Notes under the pieces: generated by a model
What the model was told of the DNA's origin: nothing
The model's database searches: none
Seen by the model: only the letters and a program-made list of their open reading frames with translations
Shown: piece by piece, positions 5,786 through 56,669 of the stretch
Layout: every line of letters begins with the position of its first letter
Numbering within the stretch: position 1 is the stretch's first letter
Position numbers and translations under genes: made by a program
Assembly (NCBI GenBank): GCA_009193035.1
Contig: SWDT01000018.1
Location: forward strand, 1 to 64,000
DNA length: 64,000 nucleotides
Reading direction: 5' to 3'
Source of the DNA: Halicephalobus mephisto
Lineage: Eukaryota > Nematoda > Chromadorea > Rhabditida > Panagrolaimidae

Positions 5786-6867
5786 ACCGAGTTCCCGGTC
5801 TCCCAGACGACTCTGACCAGAAGCGGGAGGGAGTCCTACTGCTACGACTCCAAGGTCCATCCGGGTGTTACCTACACCTTCATTGTGAAGGACACCACCA
5901 GAAAGAGCTGAAGTTGTGCTGTGCCGCCTGCACCAAGGTGAAGAGGAAGATCCCTTCCCTGAAAGCCCCGATCATCTACATGGCCAACGAGACCACCTTC
6001 GACCGGGATCGGACGGCTTGAACCATTTGTGCACTTTGGGTCCGGCGAGCTGAGGGAGAGGCCCAGGAGGCCGTGATGGTGGAGGACGGGGACACTCCTC
6101 CGTCCACTTCCATCCCCACGGCCGAGGGGTTCCCCGTCTCCGAGTGACTCTGGCCGGAGGCAAGGAAGAGGCCTACTGCTACGACTCCAGGACCCATCCC
6201 GGAGTCACCTACGTCTTCATCGTGAAGGACGTGTCGGGGAGGGGGACGGAGCTGGTCTGCAGTGCCTGTTGAAGATGAGAAGAGCATCCCTCGGCCAAAG
6301 TCCGAACCTCCACTTGCTGAGTACTTTGTGTTCGACCGGGACCCCGACGGACTCAGCCACCTGTGCACCAGGGAGCTGACAGGGCGCAGGACGTGCCGGA
6401 CACGGAGGACTTGAAAGTGGAAGGGGACAGTACGGGGGAATCCATCTTCGACGTCATAGAAAAGCTGGCTTCGGGCGGCGAATCGTCGCCGAGGCGTCCA
6501 GCACCTACGCGACGGAGGTGAGTTGCCCGCTCGGGGTGCACATGAAGCCGCTTTGCAGACCCCCTCGTCCGTCTACCCGGTCTCCCGGATCGAGATGACC
6601 CGCTCGAACCGGAAGAACTACCAGTACGACTCCAGGGTGCACGAGGCCGTGACCTACGTGTTCACCGTGAAGGAGCACAAGCAGAGCAAGCTGAAGCTGG
6701 AGTGCTCCGGGTGCAAGAGAGCCAAGAGGACGATCAGGAACGGCAGGATCCCCATCATCTATCCGACGAGTCCACCTTCGACCGGGACCCCGACGCCATC
6801 AACCACATCTGTGTGGCTCTGCTGGCGAACACGTCGGCCCTGTCTCAGGCCCAGGCCCTTGTGGAGT
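5786..6867 (+). pseudogene. Decayed modules 1-3 of a tandem CxxC...HxC module gene
   Basis: Three repeat modules related to those at 6984-7890 are recognisable but broken. Module 1 starts FPVSQTTLTRSGRESYCYDS at 5793 and shifts frame after VKDTTRKS; the continuation KLCCAACTKVKRK then IIYMANETTFDRD is in another frame and meets a stop at its HxC end. Module 2 starts near 6130 (FPVS, then EEAYCYDSRTHPGVTYVF) with a stop in its first residues and later stops around CSAC. Module 3 starts YPVSRIEMTRSNRKNYQYDS at 6574 and is open through CSGCKRAKR to IPIIYP. A small deletion near 6763 then changes frame to DESTFDRDPDAINHICVALL. The end of module 3 splices cleanly into the intact downstream part, so this was one long gene. 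At least four independent lesions make a functional full-length product unlikely. Confidence 0.65.
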
Positions 6868-6906
6868 AAGTGGACGAGATAAGTGCGAACTAATCCCCCG
6901 TTGCAG

Positions 6907-8089
6907 CGCCGTGCTGGGAAACCTGCAAGGAGAAGAGCCGGTATGTGACTAATACGACGCTTCTCACATCACACTCGTTTCAGAGGACCTATCCGGTGTC
7001 CCGTGTTCAGGAGATACAGGGCAAGAACAGCATCTACTACTACGACTCCCAGACCCGCCCGGACGTCACCTTCGTCTTCCGTGTGAAGCAGAAGAGGAAA
7101 AACTCCATCATGCTGGACTGCAGAGGCTGTCGGAAGGCCAAGACCAACATCGGCGGACGGATCCCCGTCCTGAACCTGGTGGGGGACGAGTTCGACCGCG
7201 ACCCGGACAAGCTGGAGCACATCTGCCTGATCCCTGGCGCCATTCGGTGAGTGTTGGTGTGACGCCCAGTACGGAGCGAGTGTTTCAGCCCCGATCGTCC
7301 CAAACGACCTCCCGCAGCACCCGTCCCGGTCAGGAAACCACCCCTGGTCCCGTTCCCGGTGTCGCGAGTGGAGCAGACCTCGAGACTCGCCAATGCGTAC
7401 GTCTACGAGTCCCTCCGACACCCCGGGAAGAGCTTCACCTTCCACGTCAAGGAGAACATGGGTTGGAAGCTGAAACTGAACTGTGCCAGCTGCAAGAACC
7501 GGGTGGTCAGGACGGAGGACGGCAAGGTCCCGGTTCTCTACCTGGTCGACGACATGTTCGACAGGAACCCCGACGAGCTCAACCATGTATGCGTCCAGGA
7601 GTTGGACGAACCGGAGTACGTCCCGGTAGTCGAGGAGTGCCCCGTCGGGGTCTGTTCTTCGAGGAAGAAGAGCTGCAAGAGGGTCTACAAGTATGAGTCC
7701 AAGGTCCATCCGGACCTGGTGTTCTGCTTCGAAGTGAAGGAGGTGCTGATCGACGGCCGCATGAGGCTGGACTGCTCCGAGTGCAGGGCCGTCAAGGCGT
7801 CCCGGGGAGGACGGCTCCCGATAATCAGTCTGGTCGACGGCAAGTTCGACAAGGACCCGGACAAGTTGGTCCACATCTGTCTCCCCGAGCACCTGAGGAC
7901 GACTCAGACGTCTGCTAGCACGAGTCACGTCGAGTCAAGAGATCAGGACGACGAAGACAAGGCCAAGGACGAGTCCGGTGAAATCGAGTGAGTTTTCAGT
8001 TTCCGCGAAAGTTATGAGAATCCAGTTCCAGTGCTTCTGAGCTACTGGACATGATATTCAGACAGTTCTCCGACACTCCCGCGGCGTGA
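6907..8089 (+). CDS. Tandem CxxC...HxC zinc-binding-like module protein, intact 3' part (modules 4-6)
   Basis: Exons 6907-6940, 6984-7246, 7289-7987 and 8032-8089 join in frame over 42-44-bp introns (gtatgt/ttcag, gtgagt/ttcag, gtgagt/ttccag). The last join turns an immediate stop at 7989 into the tail DASELLDMIFRQFSDTPAA ending at a TGA. It holds three modules of about 80 residues starting YPVSRV, FPVSRV and the CSSRKKSCKRVYKYES segment. Each shows an aromatic-rich strand, CxxC (CRGC, CASC, CSEC), a basic segment, a PVL/PII strand, an acidic FDxxPDxL motif and HxC (HICL, HVCV, HICL). The spacing suggests a four-ligand zinc site. It resembles FLYWCH-type fingers in being an aromatic-rich C2HC module, but I cannot assign it to that family. 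A Pro-rich linker separates modules 4 and 5, and the C-terminus is acidic. The 5' end belongs to the decayed modules upstream. GC-rich. Confidence 0.6.
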
Positions 8090-10486: not shown

Positions 10487-12747
10487 TCATTGATATGAAG
10501 GTGTGTTTAATGCAATTTCAAGATCATTGCTTCCGAATGAAGACTGCAACGGATCTTTTAAGAGATTCAAGATACCGGAGTCCAAGTCCGCATTTAGGTA
10601 ATCCTCTTTCTTTTTGGAAGAGAATTTTTTAAAATTTCCTCCGATTTGGTTGATGATCACCTTTTACTGTGAGATAGTTGTAAAGCATAAATAACAGCTC
10701 CAACTGATGTAGCGTATTCAGAATCTGTTCCATAGTAATGTTCGCTTTTTGGAAAAATGTCTTTCAAACTTTTCAGGATCATTGGCATTTTTGAGCCTCC
10801 TCCAACGTAGACTACTTTGTCGATTTTCTCAATCCCCGACTCAAGCAGCGCATCTCTGATTTTGTTGTTGATTCTGGTTAGGAGACCCTTGGAGAGATCT
10901 CGAACTTTCCTGGTTATTTCGATAGGTGTCCATTCATCCTCCCCTACTTCGCTAATATCAACCCTAAAAGATAAACATGAATTAATGATTTGTTGTATTC
11001 AAAACTTACTCTGTTTTCTCCGTTATGCTGAGATCAAATTTGGCATTTTCTATCATGTTCATCAGCTTGAACTTTTTCTTCTTGTTTTCCAAAAGTGTGT
11101 TGTATTTGTTCTCCAGGATTGTTGAAACGTAAGTAGCCAAAACTTCATCAAAATCTCTTCCACCGAGATGCGAGTCTCCAATTCTACCTATTTCGCTTAA
11201 TTTTTCGTCCTTTACTTGCATAATAGAGATGTCCAGAGTCCCTCCACCAAGATCGAAAATCATGATGTTTTGATTTTCTAAAGATTTAGAATTATTGGTT
11301 TGTTTCTTATTAGCGATGTAAAGAGAGCTCCAGCAACAGGTTCTTCCAGTAAATCCAGGACTTTGATCCCGGACAGTCTCGCAGCTTCCCTAGTTGCTTC
11401 CCTTTGTTCTTCATTGAAAAAACTAGGAACAGTAATGACTGCTTCTTCTATAGAGTTTCCATTGTTGTAGGCTTCTTGGAACTCTGTCGCCATCCTCTTC
11501 ATCTCTGTGAGTAGAATAGCACTTAATTCAATGGCACTGAATGCATTTTTGCCTGAGTTTGTTTTTGTAACAATCTCTACTCCATTTTCAGAATCCCTGA
11601 TTTGAAATGGCCATAGATCATTTCTCTCTATGTATTGACATGCCGGCTTTCCGATCATTCGTTTGACGTCGAAAACCACGTACTCTGGCTTGTCCCGGAG
11701 TCTTTTGAAGGCTACACCACCGGTGATAGGTTTGGATTGATCAAAGGAGATGAAAGAATTGAAAGAGCGATTACCGTTGTTGTCTTGAACCGCTTCTATT
11801 TCATGGTTCCTGGAGACAGCTACGGAGCACCGCGTTGTTCCTAGCATCTATTCCCATTATAGATGTCTTAGAAGGATACTTATTGATTGCCATAGGTATT
11901 TCGTAGACTTTCTTTTCAAATGCGCTATCTTTATGAGATAATCTATTTGGTATGTTGATAGCTGACTTTGTATTACGATATACGACTTGGTTGTTTGATT
12001 CTGTTTTTACCTGTACTGGGTTAATATGGTTCTTTAACTTGTGGTCGAAGAGCGGGAATTTATCCATGATTCCCCTGCTCAGGAGTCCTTCACATGCATC
12101 ATTCCTTGACCATTCGATGAATTTGTACTCATAATTATTCTCTTTAAATTCCGATTCTACCTTATCCTTAAACTTGAGGTACTGTCTCTCGTAGACAATA
12201 ATAAATCTCGTAACAGTTTTTCCTTCAACTAAATCCTGAATAAGTTTATTAAATGTGCCTTCTGTAATTTCGCCTTCATTTCCTTTGTTGCTAACATTGA
12301 TTCTATTTCGTAATCTGTAGAGGTGATCATCAAGTTGATAAATATACCCAGTAGAGTTATGTTCACCAACTTCGGCATAGAATACATAATCGTTCTCTTC
12401 TATATTTTCTAATTGGAGATGTTTGAAGTAGTATCCCAATGTAGCAGATCTCCTGTCGAGGTAGATGACTGGGATGTTTCTGCTTTGAAATTCACTCTTA
12501 GAGATCAGTCGGTTGATGTCATTTTTTAGCTCTACATTGGAACATATGAGAAAGTCTTTGGTATGCATTTCCTTTTGTATTTGTTGTTCAAGAACTTCCC
12601 TCCAATTGGTGTCTGAAAACTTATGAAAATTAAATATACTTCGAGTTAAAGAGTAAGCTTACAATTACACTTGAGATCATCATCAGGTTTGATTTTTGTT
12701 GATTTAATGAAAAAATTGTTACGAAAAATATCAATAGCTATTACCAT
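10487..12747 (-). pseudogene. Hsp70-like gene with degenerate N-terminal NBD copy, frameshifted
   Basis: Exon 1 (12747-12663) begins MVIAIDIFRNNFFIKS; exon 2 starts at 12612; the last intron is 11009-10964. The first ~240 residues read as a degenerate Hsp70 NBD: KDFLICSNVELKNDINRLI aligns with the 'AVITVPAYF' segment, RRSATLGYYF with '[10 protein letters not shown]', YVFYAEVGEHNSTG with phosphate-2, and RFIIVYERQYLKF then DACEGLLSRG with the adenosine motif and end of the NBD. A real NBD follows, with phosphate-1 IMGID/LGTTRCSVAV, Lys in FDVKRMIGK, Glu in LLEEPVAG, phosphate-2 MIFDLGGGTLD and adenosine motif VVYVGGGSKMP. There are three single-base lesions: an extra base inside GIDLGTT near 11847, a missing base near 11316 after ALFTS, and a missing base in an A-run near 10661. 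After the last, a C-terminal tail stays open to 10487. No substrate-binding domain is seen. Either a pseudogene or three assembly errors. Confidence 0.7.
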
Positions 12748-41066: not shown

Positions 41067-41932
41067 AATATTAGAAAATAAAAAATTTCATTATAAAATT
41101 GGAAGGATTGTTGCGAAATTGTGTCGACGGGAATTTTTAGAAACTTGTTAGAAATTAAAAATCTAAGTGATACTTTTAATTTCGGTAAGTAGTTGTAATT
41201 TTGTAGTCTTTCGTAATCAACAACATCAATAAAAACTAAAAATAAAGTTTTTACGAAATTTTCTCGACGGGATTTTCTGAAACCTTCCAGAACCCAAGTT
41301 AGCCTACGTGACATTTTTGATTTTCCGTGATAGTTGTGATTTTAGACTATTTCGAAATCAACATCCCCGAATTTGCTGTTTTTATGGATCCAAAGACTCC
41401 CAGATCAGAGTCATGCAGCATAAACCTTTTCTTCTTTTAGGGATAGTGATTACACATCGGACTACTGGTCGGTGTTCTATAAACGTTAATTAATATTACA
41501 GTAATTATTTAAAAGTGGATTTTTTGTGAAAATTCAAAAAGAACAAATTTGAAACCAGAGATTCCATTTGCCTTGGCTGTAATGATGGGAAGTTAGTCCT
41601 TAGTTCCCGGGTTCTCGTCGCGAAAAAGCTCTTTCTAGACAAACGTTCGTCCGTTAGCCTATCATTCGCTCCTTTGCCCTGTCGAAGGTTCTGAAATTCA
41701 TCTTCTGTTTGATTTACCGTTTTACTCCTTTCTTTTACATCATTTTCATACTTGTAATATCGATTACCATGTCTCACATCGTATAGTAGCGATTCATTGT
41801 CCCCGTAACTCGAATACAGCGTGTTTTGGTCATGCGCGAATTACATCATCCTATGTCGAAATCCTGGTTCCTCCCAAAATACATCTTAATGATCCAGTTC
41901 CTAGGTTTTTAGGTAATCGACAGCTTTCAATC
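41067..41932. other. Intergenic, 5' flank of mitochondrial Hsp70
   Basis: No gene seen. The last ~60 bp before the ATG at 41933 hold GGTTTTTAG (ending about 41912), a possible trans-splice acceptor. No clear array of heat-shock elements was found upstream. Confidence 0.4.
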
Positions 41933-44075
41933 ATGTTCTCCATGTTCCGTTCCGTCGTGTCAGCGAACAAACTGGCTACAAGCAGTTTTTACAATGTGAG
42001 CAGGAGATTGAAGTGGGTTTAAGTTTCATATATAAAAGTGACTCCCTTGACCTGTTCCATTACAACTACACCCATTTTAGGTCAGATGCAGTTCGTGGAG
42101 CAGTCATTGGAGTCGATTTGGGCACAACCAACTCCTGTGTGGCTGTTATGGAAGGAAAACAAGCTCGTGTTATTGAAAATGCCGAAGGTGTCCGTACAAC
42201 TCCTTCTGTCGTTGCGTTTACCAAGGATGGTGAAAGACTTGTTGGAGCCCCTGCCAAACGCCAAGCCGTGACAAACAGCCAGAATACTCTTTACGCCACG
42301 AAGAGATTAATTGGCCGCCGTTTTGACGATGCAGAAGTCCAGAAGGACATGAAGGTTGTGCCATTCAAGATCGTTAAAGCTCAAAATGGTGATGCTTGGG
42401 TCGAAGCCCAGGGTAAAGTGTATTCACCTTCTCAGGTCGGAGCTTACATTCTAATGAAGATGAAAGAAACTGCTGAAAGTTACCTCGGAACTGGTGTTTC
42501 CAACGCAGTTGTTACCGTTCCCGCTTATTTCAATGATTCTCAGCGTCAAGCAACCAAGGATGCCGGTCAAATTGCTGGTTTGAATGTATTGCGTGTTATC
42601 AATGAACCCACAGCCGCTGCTCTCGCTTATGGTCTCGACAAATCCGATGATAAAATGTAAGTTAAGGTTACTGCAGGCTTTTCCCAACAGGTTGTTTCAG
42701 CATTGCTGTTTATGATTTGGGTGGCGGTACTTTTGATATTTCTATTCTTGAAATCCAGAAAGGTGTCTTTGAAGTGAAGTCCACAAATGGTGACACATTC
42801 CTTGGTGGTGAAGACTTTGACAATGCACTTGTACGTTTTCTTGTTGATCAATTCAAGAAGGACCAAGGTGTTGATCTCCAAAAAGACCCTATGGCTATGC
42901 AACGTGTTCGTGAAGCTGCCGAGAAGGCCAAGTGCGAACTTTCTTCAACCACTCAAACTGATATCAACTTGCCTTACATTACTATGGATTCGTCTGGACC
43001 TAAACACATGGCTCTTAAGATTACTCGTGCTCAATTCGAAAAGTTGGTTGATGATTTGGTCAAACGTACTGTCGAGCCTTGCCGTAAAGCTCTGCACGAT
43101 GCTGAGGTTAAAGCCTCGGATATCAAGGAGGTTTTGCTTGTCGGTGGTATGAGCAGAATGCCCAAGGTCCAAGAACTCGTTCAACAAACCTTCGGTCGTC
43201 AACCAAGCAAAGCTGTGAACCCAGATGAAGCTGTCGCTATCGGAGCTGCTATTCAAGGAGCCGTTCTCGCTGGTGATGTTACTGATGTCTTGTTGTTGGA
43301 TGTTACTCCTCTCTCCCTGGGTATCGAAACTCTTGGTGGAGTCATGACCAAGTTGATTACTAGAAATACCACGATTCCAACCAAGAAGAGCCAGGTCTTC
43401 TCCACAGCTGCTGATGGACAAACTCAGGTCGAAATCAAAGTCTACCAAGGTGAACGTGACATGGCCACTCACAACAAGATCCTTGGACAATTCTCCCTTG
43501 TCGGTATTCCTCCTGCTCCACGTGGTGTCCCTCAAATTGAAGTCACTTTTGATATTGATGCTAATGGTATTGTCAATGTGTCTGCACGTGATCGTGGAAC
43601 TGGAAAGGAACAGCAAAGTAAGCGTTGATTTTGTTTTACTGGTTCTGTAATTTTCACTTTAGTTGTTATCCAATCTTCTGGTGGTTTGAGCAAGGACCAG
43701 ATCGAGAACATGATCCGCGAAGCTGAGAAGCATGCTGCCGAAGATGCTGAACGCAAGGAACTCATTGAAGCTATCAATCAGGCGGAATCCGTTATCCATG
43801 ACACTGACACAAAGATCAACGAATATGCTGATCAGATCAACGCTGACGAGGCTAAGGTCATTAAGGAAGAAATCGAAACCCTTCGCAAGAAATTGGCTGA
43901 CAAAGACAACTTGAAGGCTACTGAGGTTCGTGAGCTCATTGGTCAACTCCAGAACAAGTCACTCAAGCTCTTCGAAGCCGCTTACAAGAAGATGGCTGAA
44001 CAAAACAGTGCCAATAATCAGAACACCTCTTCCGAACCTCCCAAGGAGGAAGAAAAGAAGGAAGAACAGAAGTAA
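41933..44075 (+). CDS. hsp-6: Mitochondrial Hsp70 / mortalin
   Basis: Exons 41933-42012, 42081-42656, 42701-43617 and 43663-44075 join in frame to 661 residues, close to known mortalins. The N-terminus [20 protein letters not shown] is basic and amphipathic, a matrix-targeting presequence. NBD motifs are complete: [54 protein letters not shown] (rebuilt by the 42657-42700 intron), [14 protein letters not shown] and [13 protein letters not shown]. The substrate-binding domain ([17 protein letters not shown]) and lid ([20 protein letters not shown]) follow, ending in an acidic/Gln-rich tail. It drives protein import through the inner membrane with TIM44 and folds matrix proteins; in C. elegans hsp-6 is the classic mitochondrial unfolded-protein-response target. 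Codon use is visibly optimised compared with neighbours, as expected for high expression. Fully intact. Confidence 0.97.
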
Positions 44076-46105: not shown

Positions 46106-48055
46106 TTAATAATGGTACAATTGTTCCCGTTTTGTCGAATTTGTGTATTGTTCTTTCGAAAACCACAATTGCTGAAAACTTCCCGTTCCGACAAGCACCG
46201 AGGCTCCTTTCCAAGCGTCCAATGACGGCAGATGATGAGCTCCCGTGTAAGCATTCACCGCGTAATGAAGTCTATGGGACATTTTCATATTTCTTAATTT
46301 AGCAATAAAACCTGGAGTTTCACTAACACCACCAGTTGTCATAAAAGAACTGCAGCATTTCTAAAAATTACAAAAATTTTAAAAATAATTAATTTTAAAA
46401 ATTACTCTTTTTATATCGACATCAATGTTGTCTATGGCTCTCATGATCATATCGGGCAATGTCACAGCACCTTCGTGGTATTTTTCTGGAAGATATTTTA
46501 AATCGAAAAATCCTTCACATGCTCGGGACCTCTGAGGTCCGGTGAACTTCTGGATTACCCTGTCGATTTCGTAATCCACATCTGGAAGACCCGGATGTTT
46601 CTTGTCGATCTTGTGATCAAATTCATAAGGATTAAATTCCAAAAGTTCCATCGCAATTGTGTTCAAGGTTTTTTTTTCTTTGATTTCATCTACGGATTTA
46701 TTCCCTGTCGGCTTATATGGAACTTTGAGATTTAATTCAGTTAAAAGATCTTTTGCTGCTTGTGCTAGGTAATCTCCTCCTAAATTTGATGTTTGGATTG
46801 CTAAAAAATCAAAAAATATATATAATTTTAAAATCGACTTGCATTTCCTCAACATGTACAGTTGGTAAACACAACTGATCGTCGTTCCAGAAGCTCCCAC
46901 GTCGATTACAGCTCCGGAAATTTTCTCTTTACTTAATCTAAAAAAATATTTAACAAGTTTTTTTTAAATAAAAACTCACAATGCCAACGGTGCATTTGGC
47001 CAGATTGCGATCGCTTTCGTGTTGAATTTTTCGAACATTAATTCCGCAATTTTGTCTCTCTGTTTCTGATCATAAACAGAATGTTCTGAAAAAAATATCG
47101 GAGTTGTCGATGGATCTGCTTTGATGAAATTTTTCATGAGGATATCAAACGCCGATTCGAAGGCTTCCCAATTATCTATTTTTCCATTTTTGATTATCTG
47201 AACGTATTCTCCCGAGTCTACCGGAACAGCATTTAGCTTTGTTGTTCCGAAATATAACTTTCTATCAGAAGATTCTGGTTGTGAAGCATATCCAAGAACG
47301 GAAGGGAACACGAACTAAAAAGACCGGCAATGATTAATTTTATATAGCAACGAACGGCTGTCAGATTTGAAATAATCCATTCCAGTAAAATCCAGCGTAA
47401 TTTTTATTGTTTTGAAGACCTCTCAAGTCCTGATGTAATTTACCTATTTAAATTCATAAATGTTAAAAGTTCAACATATACCTAAAATCAGTTGATTTTT
47501 TGTTTGTTGCGAGTGAACTCTCTCGCACGCTTACGAACTGGTAGTTCCCGAATGAAATGGTAAATCTGGCTAATTAGTGAAATTTTTGGAGATAAAAATG
47601 AAGCAGTTTTTTGCAACTCATCCAATTTGCAATCACATCTGACTGAACGTGATCAACAGTGGAATTGTAATCCAACGAAAATTGAGTCTAATTGAGCACA
47701 ACCAACATGTTCAGGTTATTTTTCCTCGGAATTAGAAATATATAAACAAGTTGATTGTGTTCAATTAGGATCTACCTTAGAATTCCAACCCTATCATCTG
47801 TTACGGTCATCTAGAATCCAACGAATACCGTAATTGACAGTTCTTACGTGTTGATTAAGTTCAGTCAGACGTGATTGCAAATTACCTGTGAAAAATGCAC
47901 TTACATTAGGGGTTTCGTGCAGTCCTCCATAACCGGCTCGAATTGAGTGACTTCCTAAATCAAACACAACAGCAGAAACGTCTTCTGAAAATTCCAAAAT
48001 TATAAATTAAATTCAAAAAACACCAACCTCCGGTGTAGAAGTTCTCTTGGAGCAT
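46106..48055 (-). CDS. swsn-6: Actin-related protein, BAF53/ACTL6 (ARP4) type
   Basis: Six exons (48055-48028, 47984-47905, 47314-46980, 46937-46843, 46800-46406, 46360-46106) join in frame to 395 residues. The start MLQENFYTGEDVSAVVFDLG and SHSIRAGYGG is the actin phosphate-1 strand in BAF53-like form. FVFPSVLGYA replaces the actin 'PRAVFPSIVG'. IFFSEHSVYDQKQRDKIAEL is the 'LLTEAPLNPKANREKM' equivalent, and GAVIDVGASGTTISCVY is phosphate-2. NLGGDYLAQ, a long insertion, then FMTTGGVSETPGFIAKL and the C-terminal DAWKGASVLVGTGSFQQLWF (actin 'WIGGSILASLS') follow. ARP4/BAF53 pairs with actin in SWI/SNF and INO80-type chromatin-remodelling complexes. Intron 4 uses a GC-AG boundary (AAAT|gcaagt). 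Intron 2 (590 bp) harbours a foldback element. Followed 182 nt later by TOM20. Confidence 0.8.
47624..47883. mobile_element. Foldback MITE inside the ARP gene's second intron
   Basis: About 260 bp with inverted ends: AATTTGCAATCACATCTGAC at the left and GTCAGACGTGATTGCAAATT at the right. Imperfect inverted matching extends further inward (ACTGAACGTGATCAACAG against TGTTGATTAAGTTCAGT). It resembles the 24.0-kb element in build (a central TTAATTGAGT-like part) but has different ends. Not in coding sequence. Confidence 0.75.
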
Positions 48056-49287: not shown

Positions 49288-51383
49288 ATGTATCTCGCCG
49301 TGGATCTTGAAAAAGGCTACGCTATTTCCGACGATGAAAGTAAAAAATTCCAAATTCAGGATATTTGTAAGTTTGTTGTTAATTTAAAATTTAAAATTAT
49401 TCTTTTTAGTTATTGATGAATCGTTGTTTATAACTCTTGAAAATACTTTTAACAATCTCAGAACTAGGTTAAAATGTGACACAATCAAAAAATTAGTTTT
49501 GTGTTGTACTGAGAAAATGTTACTCGACAAAGATTACGTCATCCACGTTGCTTCTGATTGCCTGCGGATTTCTATGGACAAAATAACTTTAACCGAAATC
49601 AATGCTCCTAAATATGATTACTGGATAAGCCAAAGATACAATAATATTAATGTTTGTGATATTTATGTTTTATTAAAAATAGAAATCAACGGAAAAATTA
49701 CGAAATATGAAGCCGCATTTTTCAACATGAAAGAAGAGAATCTAGGTTCTGGGAATCCTAAAAACATTGAACGATATATGATTTATTTTAATCATATAGA
49801 AAGTATTGAAATAGAGGAATTTGTGAATCAATTTAAAGAAATTAAAAAAGAATATAATGAATTTAATTTTGTTGTTCTTTGTCATAAAAACAAACATGTG
49901 CCTGAAGGAAACTTAAAATTACTGAAAAAAGATATCCAGATTTCGAAAATGATCAAATCCGACGAATACGATGGAGTCCGAGGGGCTTTGGTGAGATTCA
50001 AGAAAAATAAATTTTTATATATTCCTTGTGAAGAATACGTTGATTTAAATTACAAACCAAAATGTGAGTTAAATTTGAAATGATTTTAAAAAATAATAAA
50101 AATCTGAAAGTTTTACAGATATTCAAAATCGACGAAATTTAGTCAACAAAGTTACAGATGATTCTGATTCTGATAATTCAGAAAATAAAAACGAAAATGG
50201 TTATAAAAATAACGAATTTTACATCGGCATCGATCTCGGTACTACGTCTTGTTCGATTGGAATTTTGTCGACTTCGGATATGGACAACATAGATTCCACC
50301 ATTATGGTCCCCTCGAGAATCATCATCGACAAAAGCGATACTGTAGAAATCGACAAAACCTTCAATACTGAAGCCATCTTCGACGTGAAGAGGATTATCG
50401 GAAAAAATTTTGAAGAAATCACAAAAATGGGCTGGAAATGGCCCTTTGAAATTATCGAAAATCGAGGAAGAGTCAAATTGAAACCAATTAACACAGATAA
50501 AACTTATTCCCCAGAAGAAATACTTTTAAAGTTACTTAATGAATTACTGTATTTAGCTGAAAAAAAGTACAACATATCCATAAGAGAAGCAATAATTGCT
50601 GTACCAGTGTATTTCACTGAAAAACAAAAAGAATCCATATATGCAGCTGCTACTTTCGCCGGAATCCATGTTCCTGAACTCATCCAGGAACCTGTTGCTT
50701 CTTTTTTCGAATATCGTTATAATCGCGGAATTATCGCAAATGAAACAGTCGTATTAATATTGGATCTGGGAGGAGGAACTTTCGATGTAGCTCTTCTAAA
50801 ATACGAAGAATCCAAGTATGAAATTGAAAGTACAGGTGGAGATGGATCTCTCGGAGGAATCGAATTCGATGGCAAAGTCGCGGAGTTGATTGAAGGCTTT
50901 ATACCAAAAAAGTACTCAGAACAGTTGAAAAATGCCGACGTCAAAGCTAGGTTGATCAAGGAGAGTGAAAAAGTAAAACGAGAATTATCAGAGAAAAAAA
51001 GCGTACAGTAAGTTTCAAATCTTACGAGTATTCCAAGTCCTAATTTTCTTTCCAGAATCCCTTTGTCTTCCTTAATCCCTTCTTCACAAGACGATATCCA
51101 CATCACAGTAACTAGAGAGAGCTTCGAAATAGCAGTACAACCTCTGCTTACGAAAATGAAAAAAGCGATCCAGAAGACTATCCAAAAATCGAATGAACAA
51201 GACATCAACGTCGTCCTTTTCACCGGAAGAGGTTGTAAAATGCCTTGTTTCGAGAAAGATATCCTTGGGGACATTTTTAAAAAGGACCCCAAGATTTTCA
51301 AATTTGTAGAAAATTCTGTCGTCAATGGAGCTGCCAGATATGCCTTTGAGTTTTATAAGGAAAAAGCTAATCAATCTGTTTAA
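49288..51383 (+). CDS. Hsp70-like protein with degenerate plus intact NBD in tandem, no substrate-binding domain
   Basis: Exons 49288-49366, 49410-50063, 50119-51007 and 51056-51383 join in frame to 649 residues. Residues 1-~245 form a degenerate NBD: MYLAVDLEKGYAI is the phosphate-1 strand without Gly-Thr-Thr. KKLVLCCTEKMLLDKDYVIH corresponds to '[15 protein letters not shown]', EINAPKYDYWI to '[10 protein letters not shown]', YEAAFFNM to the phosphate-2 strand, NFVVLCHKNKH to the adenosine motif and DGVRGALVRF to 'DEAVAYGAAV'. An acidic linker (DDSDSDNSENKNENG) leads to a normal NBD: FYIGIDLGTTSCSIGI, Lys in FDVKRIIGK, Glu in [38 protein letters not shown] and VVNGAARYAFEF. The protein stops there; no SBD or EEVD tail. 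The second NBD looks able to bind and hydrolyse ATP. Shares architecture with the pseudogene at 10.5-12.7 kb. The role is unknown; a chaperone-regulator or scaffold function is inference. Confidence 0.82.
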
Positions 51384-52274
51384 TGTTTTCATCATAAAGT
51401 TTTGAAATTTTTCAAGTCGTATTAGAGGAATTTTAATGGATATAATATAGACTTTCATAATTGCAAAGTATTTAAGTTATTCTTCAGCACATTTACAGAA
51501 TGTTACAACAGTACATGTGAAAATAGCTCTAATATACCTGTACATAAACTTAGCACAACGTATGAGTACGTTACATTAGAAGAACCAATCGAAGAAGAAG
51601 TTTCACGAAACAAGTAAAAAACTCTGAGCAATTCTGATCTCAGGCTTTAGGACAAACTAATTCATTAGAAGGAAAATCATATCAAAACATATCTGCGATG
51701 AAAAATTGCAAATCTGAGTGTTTAGTTTGTCTTTATACCGTACAATATTGTACTAAAAAGCGAACTTTGCACAGTATGGGAAAAACACCAAAAAATATAA
51801 GTACATTATATTCATCATATAGGTATATAAAATACAGTGTACCCGATGCATCAGAGCTATTTCAATGTATCGACAAACTGTATATCATGTACCGTTCTTT
51901 GTGTGCATCCACTTTGAAAACTTGCTTCAATGGCAAAGACAAGTCCATTATTCAAATCAATCACCAACCAGGAAAACGTTTCTATAAAGTTAATTCTAAT
52001 CACCTCAGATTCCCCGATTATTCAAAAAACAATCTGAAAACAAACTTCTTACAACTATAATTAAATATATATAACTTTGCAGTTTATTACTCCAGAGTCG
52101 TCAATCTGTATTCGTTACTACGACTGTCTTAGAATATTTTTCAATTGAAATTTAAGACTAGCAACATCGATGTTGTTTTACCGATTTAATCAATATCTGA
52201 CAACCAATGAAAAGGGATTACATCATCAGGATTATAGTTTAGCCTTATCTCTTTGCTTTATATTCATCCCGTGG
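51384..52274. other. Intergenic between convergent Hsp70-like genes
   Basis: AT-rich. A 120-codon plus-strand frame (51698-52060) overlaps sequence related to other repeats in the window (TGTATATCATGTACC..TTTGTGTG also at 62090) and is not accepted as a gene. Confidence 0.4.
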
Positions 52275-53841
52275 TTAGTCGAATTGATATCGGCACTTGA
52301 CTTGAGTTATCAATTCATTCTTTCCTTTCACTTTTGCCGTCGTGTGTAACATTCCACTTTTATCTAGTAGGAAGTCAATAATCACTGTTACTTTTCCTTC
52401 TGGGATATTTTCCATCACAAGATCAGCAAACGGTGTGGTTTCTTGTATTCTTGACGATAACACTTCATAGATCTAAAGTTGTTTATTATAAAAATATGTT
52501 CAAAATTAAATTACCGGAATAACTAGACGATCTTGGTTGACCACTTCAAAATCAACAGAGATTGTTTTAGGTAGTGGAAGATTCTTTTCAAAAATAATCT
52601 TCGGTCCTTCATTTGGAAGTTGGATTCCGATAGGATAATAAGATATGTTTTTTACTTTGAATAAAGGAGAAAGCGCTGCTCCTCTTGCAAAATCCAGTGT
52701 CATTCCTGTGGATTTATGAATTTTAACTTCACTTCCGAAGAATTCTTTCATCATTTCTTTAACAAATGCCATGCTAGAAGCCATCCCAAACAAAAGTACC
52801 TCGTCGATTTGAATTTCAGCCTTTTTAGCTTCACTTACTGTAAGTTGGCAAACTTTTCGAATCCGCTGAATAAGATGTTTACTTTTTTCGTGAAACTCTG
52901 ATCTTAGGATTTCGTCATCTTTAGCATCGTGATAAATGTCACTTAGTGGAAGAGTCTCGCTTTCAGTTTCACTCAGGTCTTCTTTGATTCCTGAGGCTTT
53001 CTGGAGGATCTTCAATCGGGTTTTGGCTTTTCGCTTTAAACCTTGGAAATGATTAAAATCTACTTGACTACTTAGTTTCTCCTCCATGATCTTGACGACA
53101 ACGAGATCAAAGTCCCTTCCACCCAGTTCGGAATCTCCATTTGAAATTAAGACTTTGTAGGTTTCTGACGAATGAAGATATTGAACAATAGTAGTGTCTA
53201 ATGTTCCTCCTCCAAGGGTGAAAATAAAACTAGTTGTGTCTTTAGTAGATTTCATTCTATCATGGTAAGAGATCAGTCCGGCAATTGCCTTTGGCACTAG
53301 TCTATCAACTTTGGCATTTGTTTTTTCAGCAGCTTTTATTAAAGCTAGTTTTTGGATCGAAGTAAAAGCTGCAGGATAGACAATTCTGACTTGAATTTCA
53401 GATTTGTTCTGGATGATTAAATTTAACCAATCCGCAATTACTTTTACCGGGCAGATTAACTCTCCATCACTGTTTTTGTAATACACTTTTCCGGATTTAT
53501 CATCAAGTTTGGAGTCGATGGAGAACGACCAGTAATTTCTATAGGTATTGATTAACTTAGAATTTATGCACTGACCAATTAGTCGCTTACTATCATAGAA
53601 AATATGTTCATAGTTACGTACAGAAACTTCTTTGGCTTTTCTGCCATATATCTCGACATCTTGATTTTGGTAATAACTGTAGGTAGGAGTAACATCTGAA
53701 AAGTAGACTTGTAATGCATAGGGATAATTGTAACTTACTTTTATTTTCATTATTTAGGATGAAAGTGAAAGTTCTTGAATGCAGTTGAGCAATAACGAGT
53801 TTCGTAGTTCCAATGTCTATCCCGAATACGGATATATCCAT
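52275..53841 (-). CDS. Divergent Hsp70-like protein with altered nucleotide site and truncated SBD
   Basis: Exons 53841-53739, 53695-52515 and 52472-52275 join in frame to 493 residues. It has an ordinary Hsp70 start, VFGIDIGTTKLVIAQLHS, and the Lys of SKRLIGQ. Key positions elsewhere are changed: the conserved Glu of 'NEPTAAA' becomes Lys (LVPKAIAGL), the first Asp of phosphate-2 becomes Thr (IFTLGGGTLDTT), and the adenosine motif 'VGGSxRIP' reads FGMASSMAF. SNGDSELGGRDFD and LDFARGAALSPLF are kept. After the NBD only the start of a beta-SBD remains (ISYYPIGIQLPNEGPKIIF, LPLPKTISVDF, then exon 3 PEGKVTVIIDFLLDKSGML), with no lid. So it folds like Hsp70 but probably has weak or no ATPase activity and an incomplete client site. 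It faces the gene at 49288-51383. All three exons are intact. Confidence 0.85.
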
Positions 53842-55814: not shown

Positions 55815-56669
55815 ATGGCGGTACTTTTAAGCATAGATCTGGTTCATTATTTTTACGCACTTTATAACATTACTTCGAGAAAAGAAGAAGAGCCAGTGAA
55901 GTTCGTACATTCAGGTAAGGTTAATTTATATAAATAAATAAAGTTTTACAATTTCTAAAATAAAATACTCGAATTTCATTTCAAAATTTTTGATTATCTT
56001 TTAATGAAAATTAATGATTTTTCAGAAGATATAAACATCCTCTTCAGCAACCTGTCCTCTAGATTTTCGAAATTTGAAATCTCCCAAATAGTAATATCTT
56101 GCTCCGAGAAAGATCTACAACGCAGGAACAGAATCTTGATCTTAGCCAAAAAACACTTCAAAAACGCTCCTACTGAGATTATTCCTCCAAGAACTGGAAC
56201 CTATACTTACTGGCTATACAAGAAGAATCTAACGTTTGAAATTGGAAAAGTCGTCTATATCGTTAGAATTAAGCAGGACCATGAATCAAAGAATATTACG
56301 TACAACGCCGCGGCATTTACCTTGAACCACGGATGTATGGTTTACTTTAAGTATATTAATAGTATGGAAAACAAGACTGATTTTATAAACGAACTCAAAG
56401 AACAATTAAAAGTTTACAATAATTGTTATTTGATCTACAATTATGCCGAGAAGGATTGTGAAAAATACGTGAAGGAAATTAGTTATACCATCGGATGGAA
56501 ATATTTGGATTTCTTCCAGACGAATGATAAAGATGGAGTTAGAGGAGGTCTAATCATTGCAAAAAGTATCATTTTCAAATCAAGCATGCCTCACTTTTAT
56601 CCTGTAAGAGAATTAGCAGATTTCGGAGTGAGAGTGAAGAAGAAGACTAGGACACTTAATAATAATTGA
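55815..56669 (+). CDS. Stand-alone degenerate Hsp70 NBD-like protein
   Basis: Exons 55815-55914 and 56026-56669 join in frame to 247 residues. MAVLLSIDLVHYFYALYN matches the starts of the genes at 49288 and 12747 (MYLAVDLEKGYAI, MVIAIDIFRNNFFI). The body has the same order of degenerate Hsp70 elements: ISQIVISCSEKDLQRRNRIL ('AVITVPAYF.D.QRQA'), TEIIPPRTGTYTYWLYKK ('[16 protein letters not shown]'), VVYIVRIKQDHESKN (phosphate-2), NCYLIYNYAEKDCEKYV (adenosine motif) and DKDGVRGGLIIAKS ('DEAVAYGAAVQ'). No Gly-rich phosphate loop remains, so nucleotide binding is not expected. The gene ends cleanly at a TAA, with no second NBD downstream before 59 kb. Either a member reduced to the N-terminal domain or the ancestral unit later fused to a full NBD. 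Function unknown. Confidence 0.7.

Follow-up and report, generated by a model that had tools for sequence, protein, structure and literature searches.

We report a gene, here called gene A, on the forward strand of a 64,000-nucleotide stretch of the nematode Halicephalobus mephisto (assembly GCA_009193035.1, contig SWDT01000018.1, positions 1 to 64,000; the window). Its protein consists of an Hsp70-type nucleotide-binding domain (NBD) with its catalytic residues, without a recognisable substrate-binding domain (SBD), and preceded by a further domain of about 245 residues (the N-domain). A similar layout is common in the genome and is found in many genes. The reading that we favour, at a rough probability of 0.48, is that gene A belongs to, or is an analogue of, a set of Hsp70-type ATPases which lack an SBD and carry an inactive ASKHA-like domain in cis to the NBD.

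Architecture of the gene A protein

Splicing and translation of the window give gene A four exons (Table 1) and an uninterrupted protein of 649 residues followed by a stop codon, and all three introns run from GT to AG. Residues 280-634 are an Hsp70 NBD according to Pfam (PF00012, expectation value E 2e-60, profile positions 2-369 of 599), and with phmmer the exon-3 part of this NBD matched Hsp70-2 and Hsc70 chains among the PDB sequences (E 1.6e-38 to about 3e-37). The catalytic and phosphate positions were read from an alignment with 34 other NBD sequences. All ten that were scored are kept (the equivalents of D10, T13, K71, E175, P176, D199, G201, G202, T204 and D206), and in the adenosine loop three of the four scored positions are changed (G-R-G-K vs G-G-S-R) and one is kept. 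The protein would be expected to bind ATP.

Neither an SBD nor the interdomain linker was recognised in gene A, whose last exon matches PF00012 only up to position 369. Downstream, Pfam gives nothing at E<=1 for the two plus-strand frames of at least 60 residues that lie between 51383 and 52275, and the genome-wide PF00012 list, for which 73 of 210 candidates were scored, holds nothing at 51383-52275. An earlier note on this DNA had described an open four-exon model in which an N-domain stripped of every Gly-rich nucleotide loop, an acidic linker and a complete NBD with intact catalytic residues follow one another, the protein ending with the NBD. Our results agree with it in each of these respects: the architecture holds as a reading frame, the linker is acidic by eye, and no Gly-rich nucleotide loop is seen when the translation of residues 1-244 is read by eye.

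Recurrence of the layout in the genome

The searched assembly, which contains the window, has 59.9 Mb in 331 contigs. At least 74 PF00012 matches were counted in it, exon by exon, which is a lower bound in view of the candidates scored. A large subfamily stands out, with reading frames of about 550 residues in which the NBD starts after about 260-290 residues. When the N-domain of one member (L029) was used as the query, 79 genome matches were obtained, 57 of them stop-free and covering at least 200 of the 251 residues, on 39 contigs; 62 of the 79 rows were entered, the other 17 being fragments or broken. The frames of the 57 copies measure 500-610 residues in 47 cases, at least 670 in nine and 382 in one. 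The start of an NBD follows the N-domain directly in all 16 of these loci that were opened, and for the other 41 it is presumed from the frame length.

Three of the nine long frames were opened (L017, L028 and L035), and all read as the end of an NBD, an N-domain and the start of an NBD; eight of the nine have a further N-domain on their own strand, no more than 3 kb upstream. For L017 and L035 the splice models take in N-domain, NBD, N-domain and NBD start with no stop, and thus represent modelled four-domain proteins. Such models, built with ad hoc splice scoring, were obtained for 13 of the 14 open reading frames tried, and the tail after their NBD is short or charged by eye. For two last exons checked against Pfam, the PF00012 match reaches positions 379 and 425 of 599, the second ending somewhat past the NBD end. 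As a separate observation, L030 and L032 each hold a pair of consecutive NBDs, of which the first is degenerate, and between which there is hardly any N-domain or none.

The N-domains are of three kinds. Besides the large subfamily, a second subfamily (L024, L033 and gene B of the window) has a different N-domain with an exon 1 resembling that of gene A, and the third kind is formed by gene A and its neighbour gene C, which are 30% identical in the exon-2 part. A short exon 1 followed by an intron is common to genes A and C, L024 and L033. In two trees, the NBDs of L024 and of the large subfamily form one clade (100/98 and 100/99). The NBD of gene A is sister to the large-subfamily NBDs with 72/27 in one tree, and the second tree does not resolve its position, a single clade not being rejected (p-AU 0.37). 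Two separate genes at the gene A locus were considered and judged unlikely, because the relatives carry N-domain and NBD in one open frame.

Is the N-domain a decayed NBD?

The earlier note took residues 1 to about 245 to follow the order of Hsp70 NBD elements, and the N-domain to be a degenerate NBD. The first part is plausible from predicted secondary structure and undetected by sequence statistics; the second finds a compatible element order, together with models of low confidence and sequence tests that are negative for gene A. The structure models of the N-domains of gene A and a relative, B, have a pLDDT of 46-48. In these models the element order is near to that of the double RNase-H/actin-like (ASKHA) fold in A and equal to it in B, and the alternating helix-strand pattern extends into the first half of the domain, most clearly in B. 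The fold matches of both models, among those listed, were mainly RNase-H-like, ribosomal-S11-type and ASKHA proteins with middling scores, and VIA-align listed several ASKHA proteins for both. The comparison yielded neither a structure devoid of an actin-like fold nor a confident actin-like fold. With hhalign, the N-domain pair of L024 and L033 was weakly positive against NBDs. A degenerate NBD in gene A is plausible and unproven, and a double RNase-H-like fold as modelled is suggestive only.

Several results weigh against this reading. Residues 1-244 of gene A gave no PF00012 match at E<=1 and no ASKHA family in Pfam, the best row being TANGO2 (E 0.007, under the family cut-off). With block-shuffle and reversal controls, hhalign placed the gene A N-domain at chance against NBDs, and the addition of divergent members still gave no link. 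The same N-domain was at chance with a gap-tolerant position-specific scoring matrix (PSSM) compared with shuffles and 20 unrelated slices. The three kinds of N-domain could not be tied to one another either, since hhalign of the gene A and gene C pair was at background against both the large subfamily and L024/L033. Among the structural results, the fold matches of both models lie chiefly over the second half of the domain, and the 50 Foldseek matches listed for model A, most of them to reverse transcriptases, integrases and Argonautes, include no ASKHA protein, which, together with the AIG1 matches in control genomes given below, slightly lowers the odds. No Hsp70 or actin chain stands among the fold matches listed for either model, an absence which excludes nothing. 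The profile of the large-subfamily N-domain gave no match among the PDB sequences up to E 10. A proof from sequence that the domain is a pseudo-NBD was therefore given up, as Pfam, hhalign, PSSM and the PDB profile search all fail for gene A, and the motif walk over residues 1-244 is without statistical support because no Pfam, profile or PSSM link to NBDs was found.

A rival reading is that an alpha/beta domain of other descent, which may be one RNase-H-like unit bearing additional helices, was recruited ahead of the NBD and forms the N-domain. The lack of any sequence tie between the gene A N-domain and NBDs, the TANGO2 row, the concentration of fold matches in the second half and the Foldseek entries all favour it. 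We still consider it unlikely, although it is the strongest of the rivals, for the helix-strand alternation is present in the first half too, VIA-align lists ASKHA proteins for both models, and exon 1 of gene A, gene C, L024 and L033 encodes, by eye, a strand-Asp-strand-like start at the phosphate-1 position.

Selection and heat-shock elements

For 13 members of the large subfamily (all 78 pairs), the median ratio of nonsynonymous to synonymous substitution rates (dN/dS) is 0.49 (0.31-1.12) in the N-domain and 0.31 (0.16-0.57) in the first-exon part of the NBD, values which describe the large subfamily and not gene A, and of which those of the NBD may be depressed by gene conversion. The median dN is 0.30 in the N-domain vs 0.11 in the NBD, and the median dS 0.63 vs 0.36. 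Both parts are therefore constrained in the large subfamily, the N-domain more loosely, and both are under purifying selection.

The canonical HSP70 gene (L001) is preceded, at a distance of 252 bases, by a perfect three-unit heat-shock element (reached in none of 200 shuffles). Upstream of the 12 other genes scanned, gene A included, no heat-shock element was better than chance, and this covers the 500 bases before gene A and before all eight large-subfamily genes scanned.

These data bear on a second alternative, in which the genes form a fast-evolving recognition family: the variable N-domain would bind a putative ligand or microbial product and the NBD would act as the switch, much as in an immune receptor. 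The many copies within one genome, the faster evolution of the N-domain and the difference in heat-shock elements from the canonical HSP70 are in its favour, as is one locus (L052 and L054, described below) where an AIG1-type GTPase frame comes after an N-domain and degenerate NBD-like sequence. On the other hand, the median dN/dS of the N-domain is below 1, and the Hsp70 genes of H. mephisto are mildly induced by heat (PMC6872716); we regard this alternative as rather improbable. Least probable of all is that gene A is a relic in decay, or that its prediction wrongly joins two genes: its NBD lies on a long branch (1.78 and 1.94 in the two trees), gene B is frameshifted and gene C has no NBD behind its N-domain, but gene A has four open exons, GT..AG introns and its catalytic residues, and both parts share one open frame in L024 and in the large subfamily.

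Proposed mechanism and known systems

If gene A does belong to a set of SBD-less ATPases with an inactive ASKHA-like partner, the N-domain would be a double RNase-H-like core that lacks insertions IB and IIB. It may dock on the NBD as a built-in dimer partner, controlling the exchange or hydrolysis of nucleotide and offering a variable surface for binding; this cis packing and regulation are proposed by analogy. As there is no SBD, ATP turnover would serve not to release peptides but to power assembly or a switch of conformation.

Parts of this scheme are known from other proteins. Like gene A, HSPA13/STCH has an Hsp70-type NBD without an SBD; unlike gene A, it has a single NBD and no front domain, and it is a protein of the endoplasmic reticulum. 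Hexokinase I has an inactive ASKHA half fused before an active one, as proposed here, but it is a sugar kinase whose halves retain an obvious sequence similarity. Like the gene A protein, Hsp110 and Ssz1/HSPA14 are atypical proteins of the Hsp70 fold; they differ from it in acting in trans, with full or truncated SBDs. TsaD is a tRNA-modifying enzyme and no Hsp70. In fold terms, the nearest precedent would be YeaZ/TsaB, an ASKHA-type protein which has apparently lost ATP binding, dimerises and forms a complex with YgjD/TsaD (PMC2954210). The likeness lies in a small ASKHA-type protein with a homologous ASKHA partner, and the difference in that the two are separate proteins and not fused (PMC2954210).

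The Hsp70 expansion of H. mephisto has been published (Weinstein et al. 2019, PMC6872716), with a genome of 61.4 Mb and 32.1% GC, 126 Hsp70 and 84 AIG1 domains, 112 Hsp70 loci and a 37-member cluster found in H. mephisto only, and has been interpreted as extra chaperone dosage for heat. Its Cluster II is possibly the same gene set, the published expansion likewise combining many Hsp70 and AIG1 genes with long-branch members. In this account we found no mention of a front domain, of the loss of the SBD or of a tandem arrangement, and the words 'tandem' and 'nucleotide-binding' are absent from its main text. Our literature search on tandem or pseudo-NBD Hsp70s and on Halicephalobus Hsp70 architecture, which covered few subscription journals, did not find the layout described. 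The claim that no such Hsp70 class had been described was too strong in view of the published expansion, in which we found no description of the layout.

We tentatively go one step further and suggest, as a possibility rated below even odds, that tandem ASKHA ATPases form a new class, in which a pseudo-NBD is fused in cis to an Hsp70 NBD devoid of an SBD, in dozens of genes of one nematode lineage and in some cases as chains of four ASKHA domains, and which would work as self-contained dimer switches, while lone pseudo-NBDs such as gene C may act in trans. If an SBD is missing and an inactive partner present in many of the expanded genes, these are unlikely to encode chaperones that bind peptides; the scanned genes of this layout also lack the heat-shock element present at the canonical HSP70. 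If the suggestion is true, the family offers a natural series of pseudo-NBD/NBD pairs for the regulation of one ASKHA domain by another.

Neighbouring genes and other observations

Table 1. Positions of gene A and of Hsp70-related neighbours in the window
Feature	Position	Strand	Content
Gene A exon 1	49288..49366	+	MYLAVDLEKGYAI...; putative first beta-hairpin, phosphate-1 equivalent, glycines lost (by eye)
Gene A intron 1	49367..49409	+	43 nt, GT..AG
Gene A exon 2	49410..50063	+	Remaining N-domain, up to residue ~245; possible degenerate ASKHA domain
Gene A intron 2	50064..50118	+	55 nt, GT..AG; separates N-domain from linker
Gene A exon 3	50119..51007	+	Acidic linker, then NBD from phosphate-1 (GIDLGTTS) to phosphate-2 (DLGGGTFD)
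Gene A intron 3	51008..51055	+	48 nt, GT..AG
Gene A exon 4	51056..51383	+	End of NBD and stop; without linker-SBD
Gene B	10657..12747	-	N-domain 12610-11861, 58% identical to L024, and NBD
Gene C	55815..56669	+	Exons 55815-55914 and 56026-56669; N-domain alone
Gene D	52275..53841	-	Divergent Hsp70-like, 493 residues, without N-domain; between genes A and C

In the plus-strand frames of at least 45 residues as far as 59500, no NBD was seen by eye behind gene C. Two origins were tried, one in which gene C is a truncated copy of gene A and one in which gene A arose when a C-like gene fused with an NBD gene, and the flank comparisons were insufficient for either: the likeness between intron 2 of gene A and the 3' end of gene C is borderline (reached by 26 of 500 resamples), and the three remaining comparisons of flanks do not exceed chance. 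In gene D the catalytic positions are partly lost (K for E175, T for D199), and its tail is SBD-beta-like by eye, the last exon having no Pfam match.

The reading frame of gene B breaks near NBD phosphate-1 and again before phosphate-2 (by eye). Gene B and L033 (C219:129146-129895) are close copies on the same contig, about 117 kb apart. Their N-domain frame is open in both and their NBD frames break at different places (by eye), which therefore points to decay or assembly errors.

At one locus (L052:460-2701 and L054:3-1157, C147:41459-44756), an N-domain and degenerate NBD-like sequence are followed by an open frame of an AIG1-type GTPase (PF04548, E 1.4e-6), the NBD-like part having no PF00012 match. 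This locus is a possible link between two numerous gene families, Hsp70-like and AIG1. AIG1 genes as general carriers of the N-domain were rejected: three of the four AIG1 loci opened have nothing Hsp70-like upstream by eye, and only the C147 locus does.

SL1-like matches number 47 in the assembly, the best with 49 bits, under the Rfam cut-off of 75, and none occurs in the 14 control genomes, which speaks for a nematode. The AT content of the window and the joint numbers of Hsp70 and AIG1 matches fit Halicephalobus, but the AIG1 family, with 59 matches in the assembly, weighs little as a marker, since 12 out of 14 prokaryote controls match it as well and 8 of them pass the cut-off. A repeated cysteine-rich module was seen by eye at 6460-7991 (+), where 6001-8000 has 61% GC; the open reading frame 7263-7991 in this stretch has no Pfam match. 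Close to gene A, at 46379-48006 (-), lies an actin-family gene with PF00022 in two exons, actin-related-protein-like by eye, and at 41917-44075 (+) a mitochondrial-type Hsp70, mortalin-like by eye, whose PF00012 matches cover profile positions 1-598.
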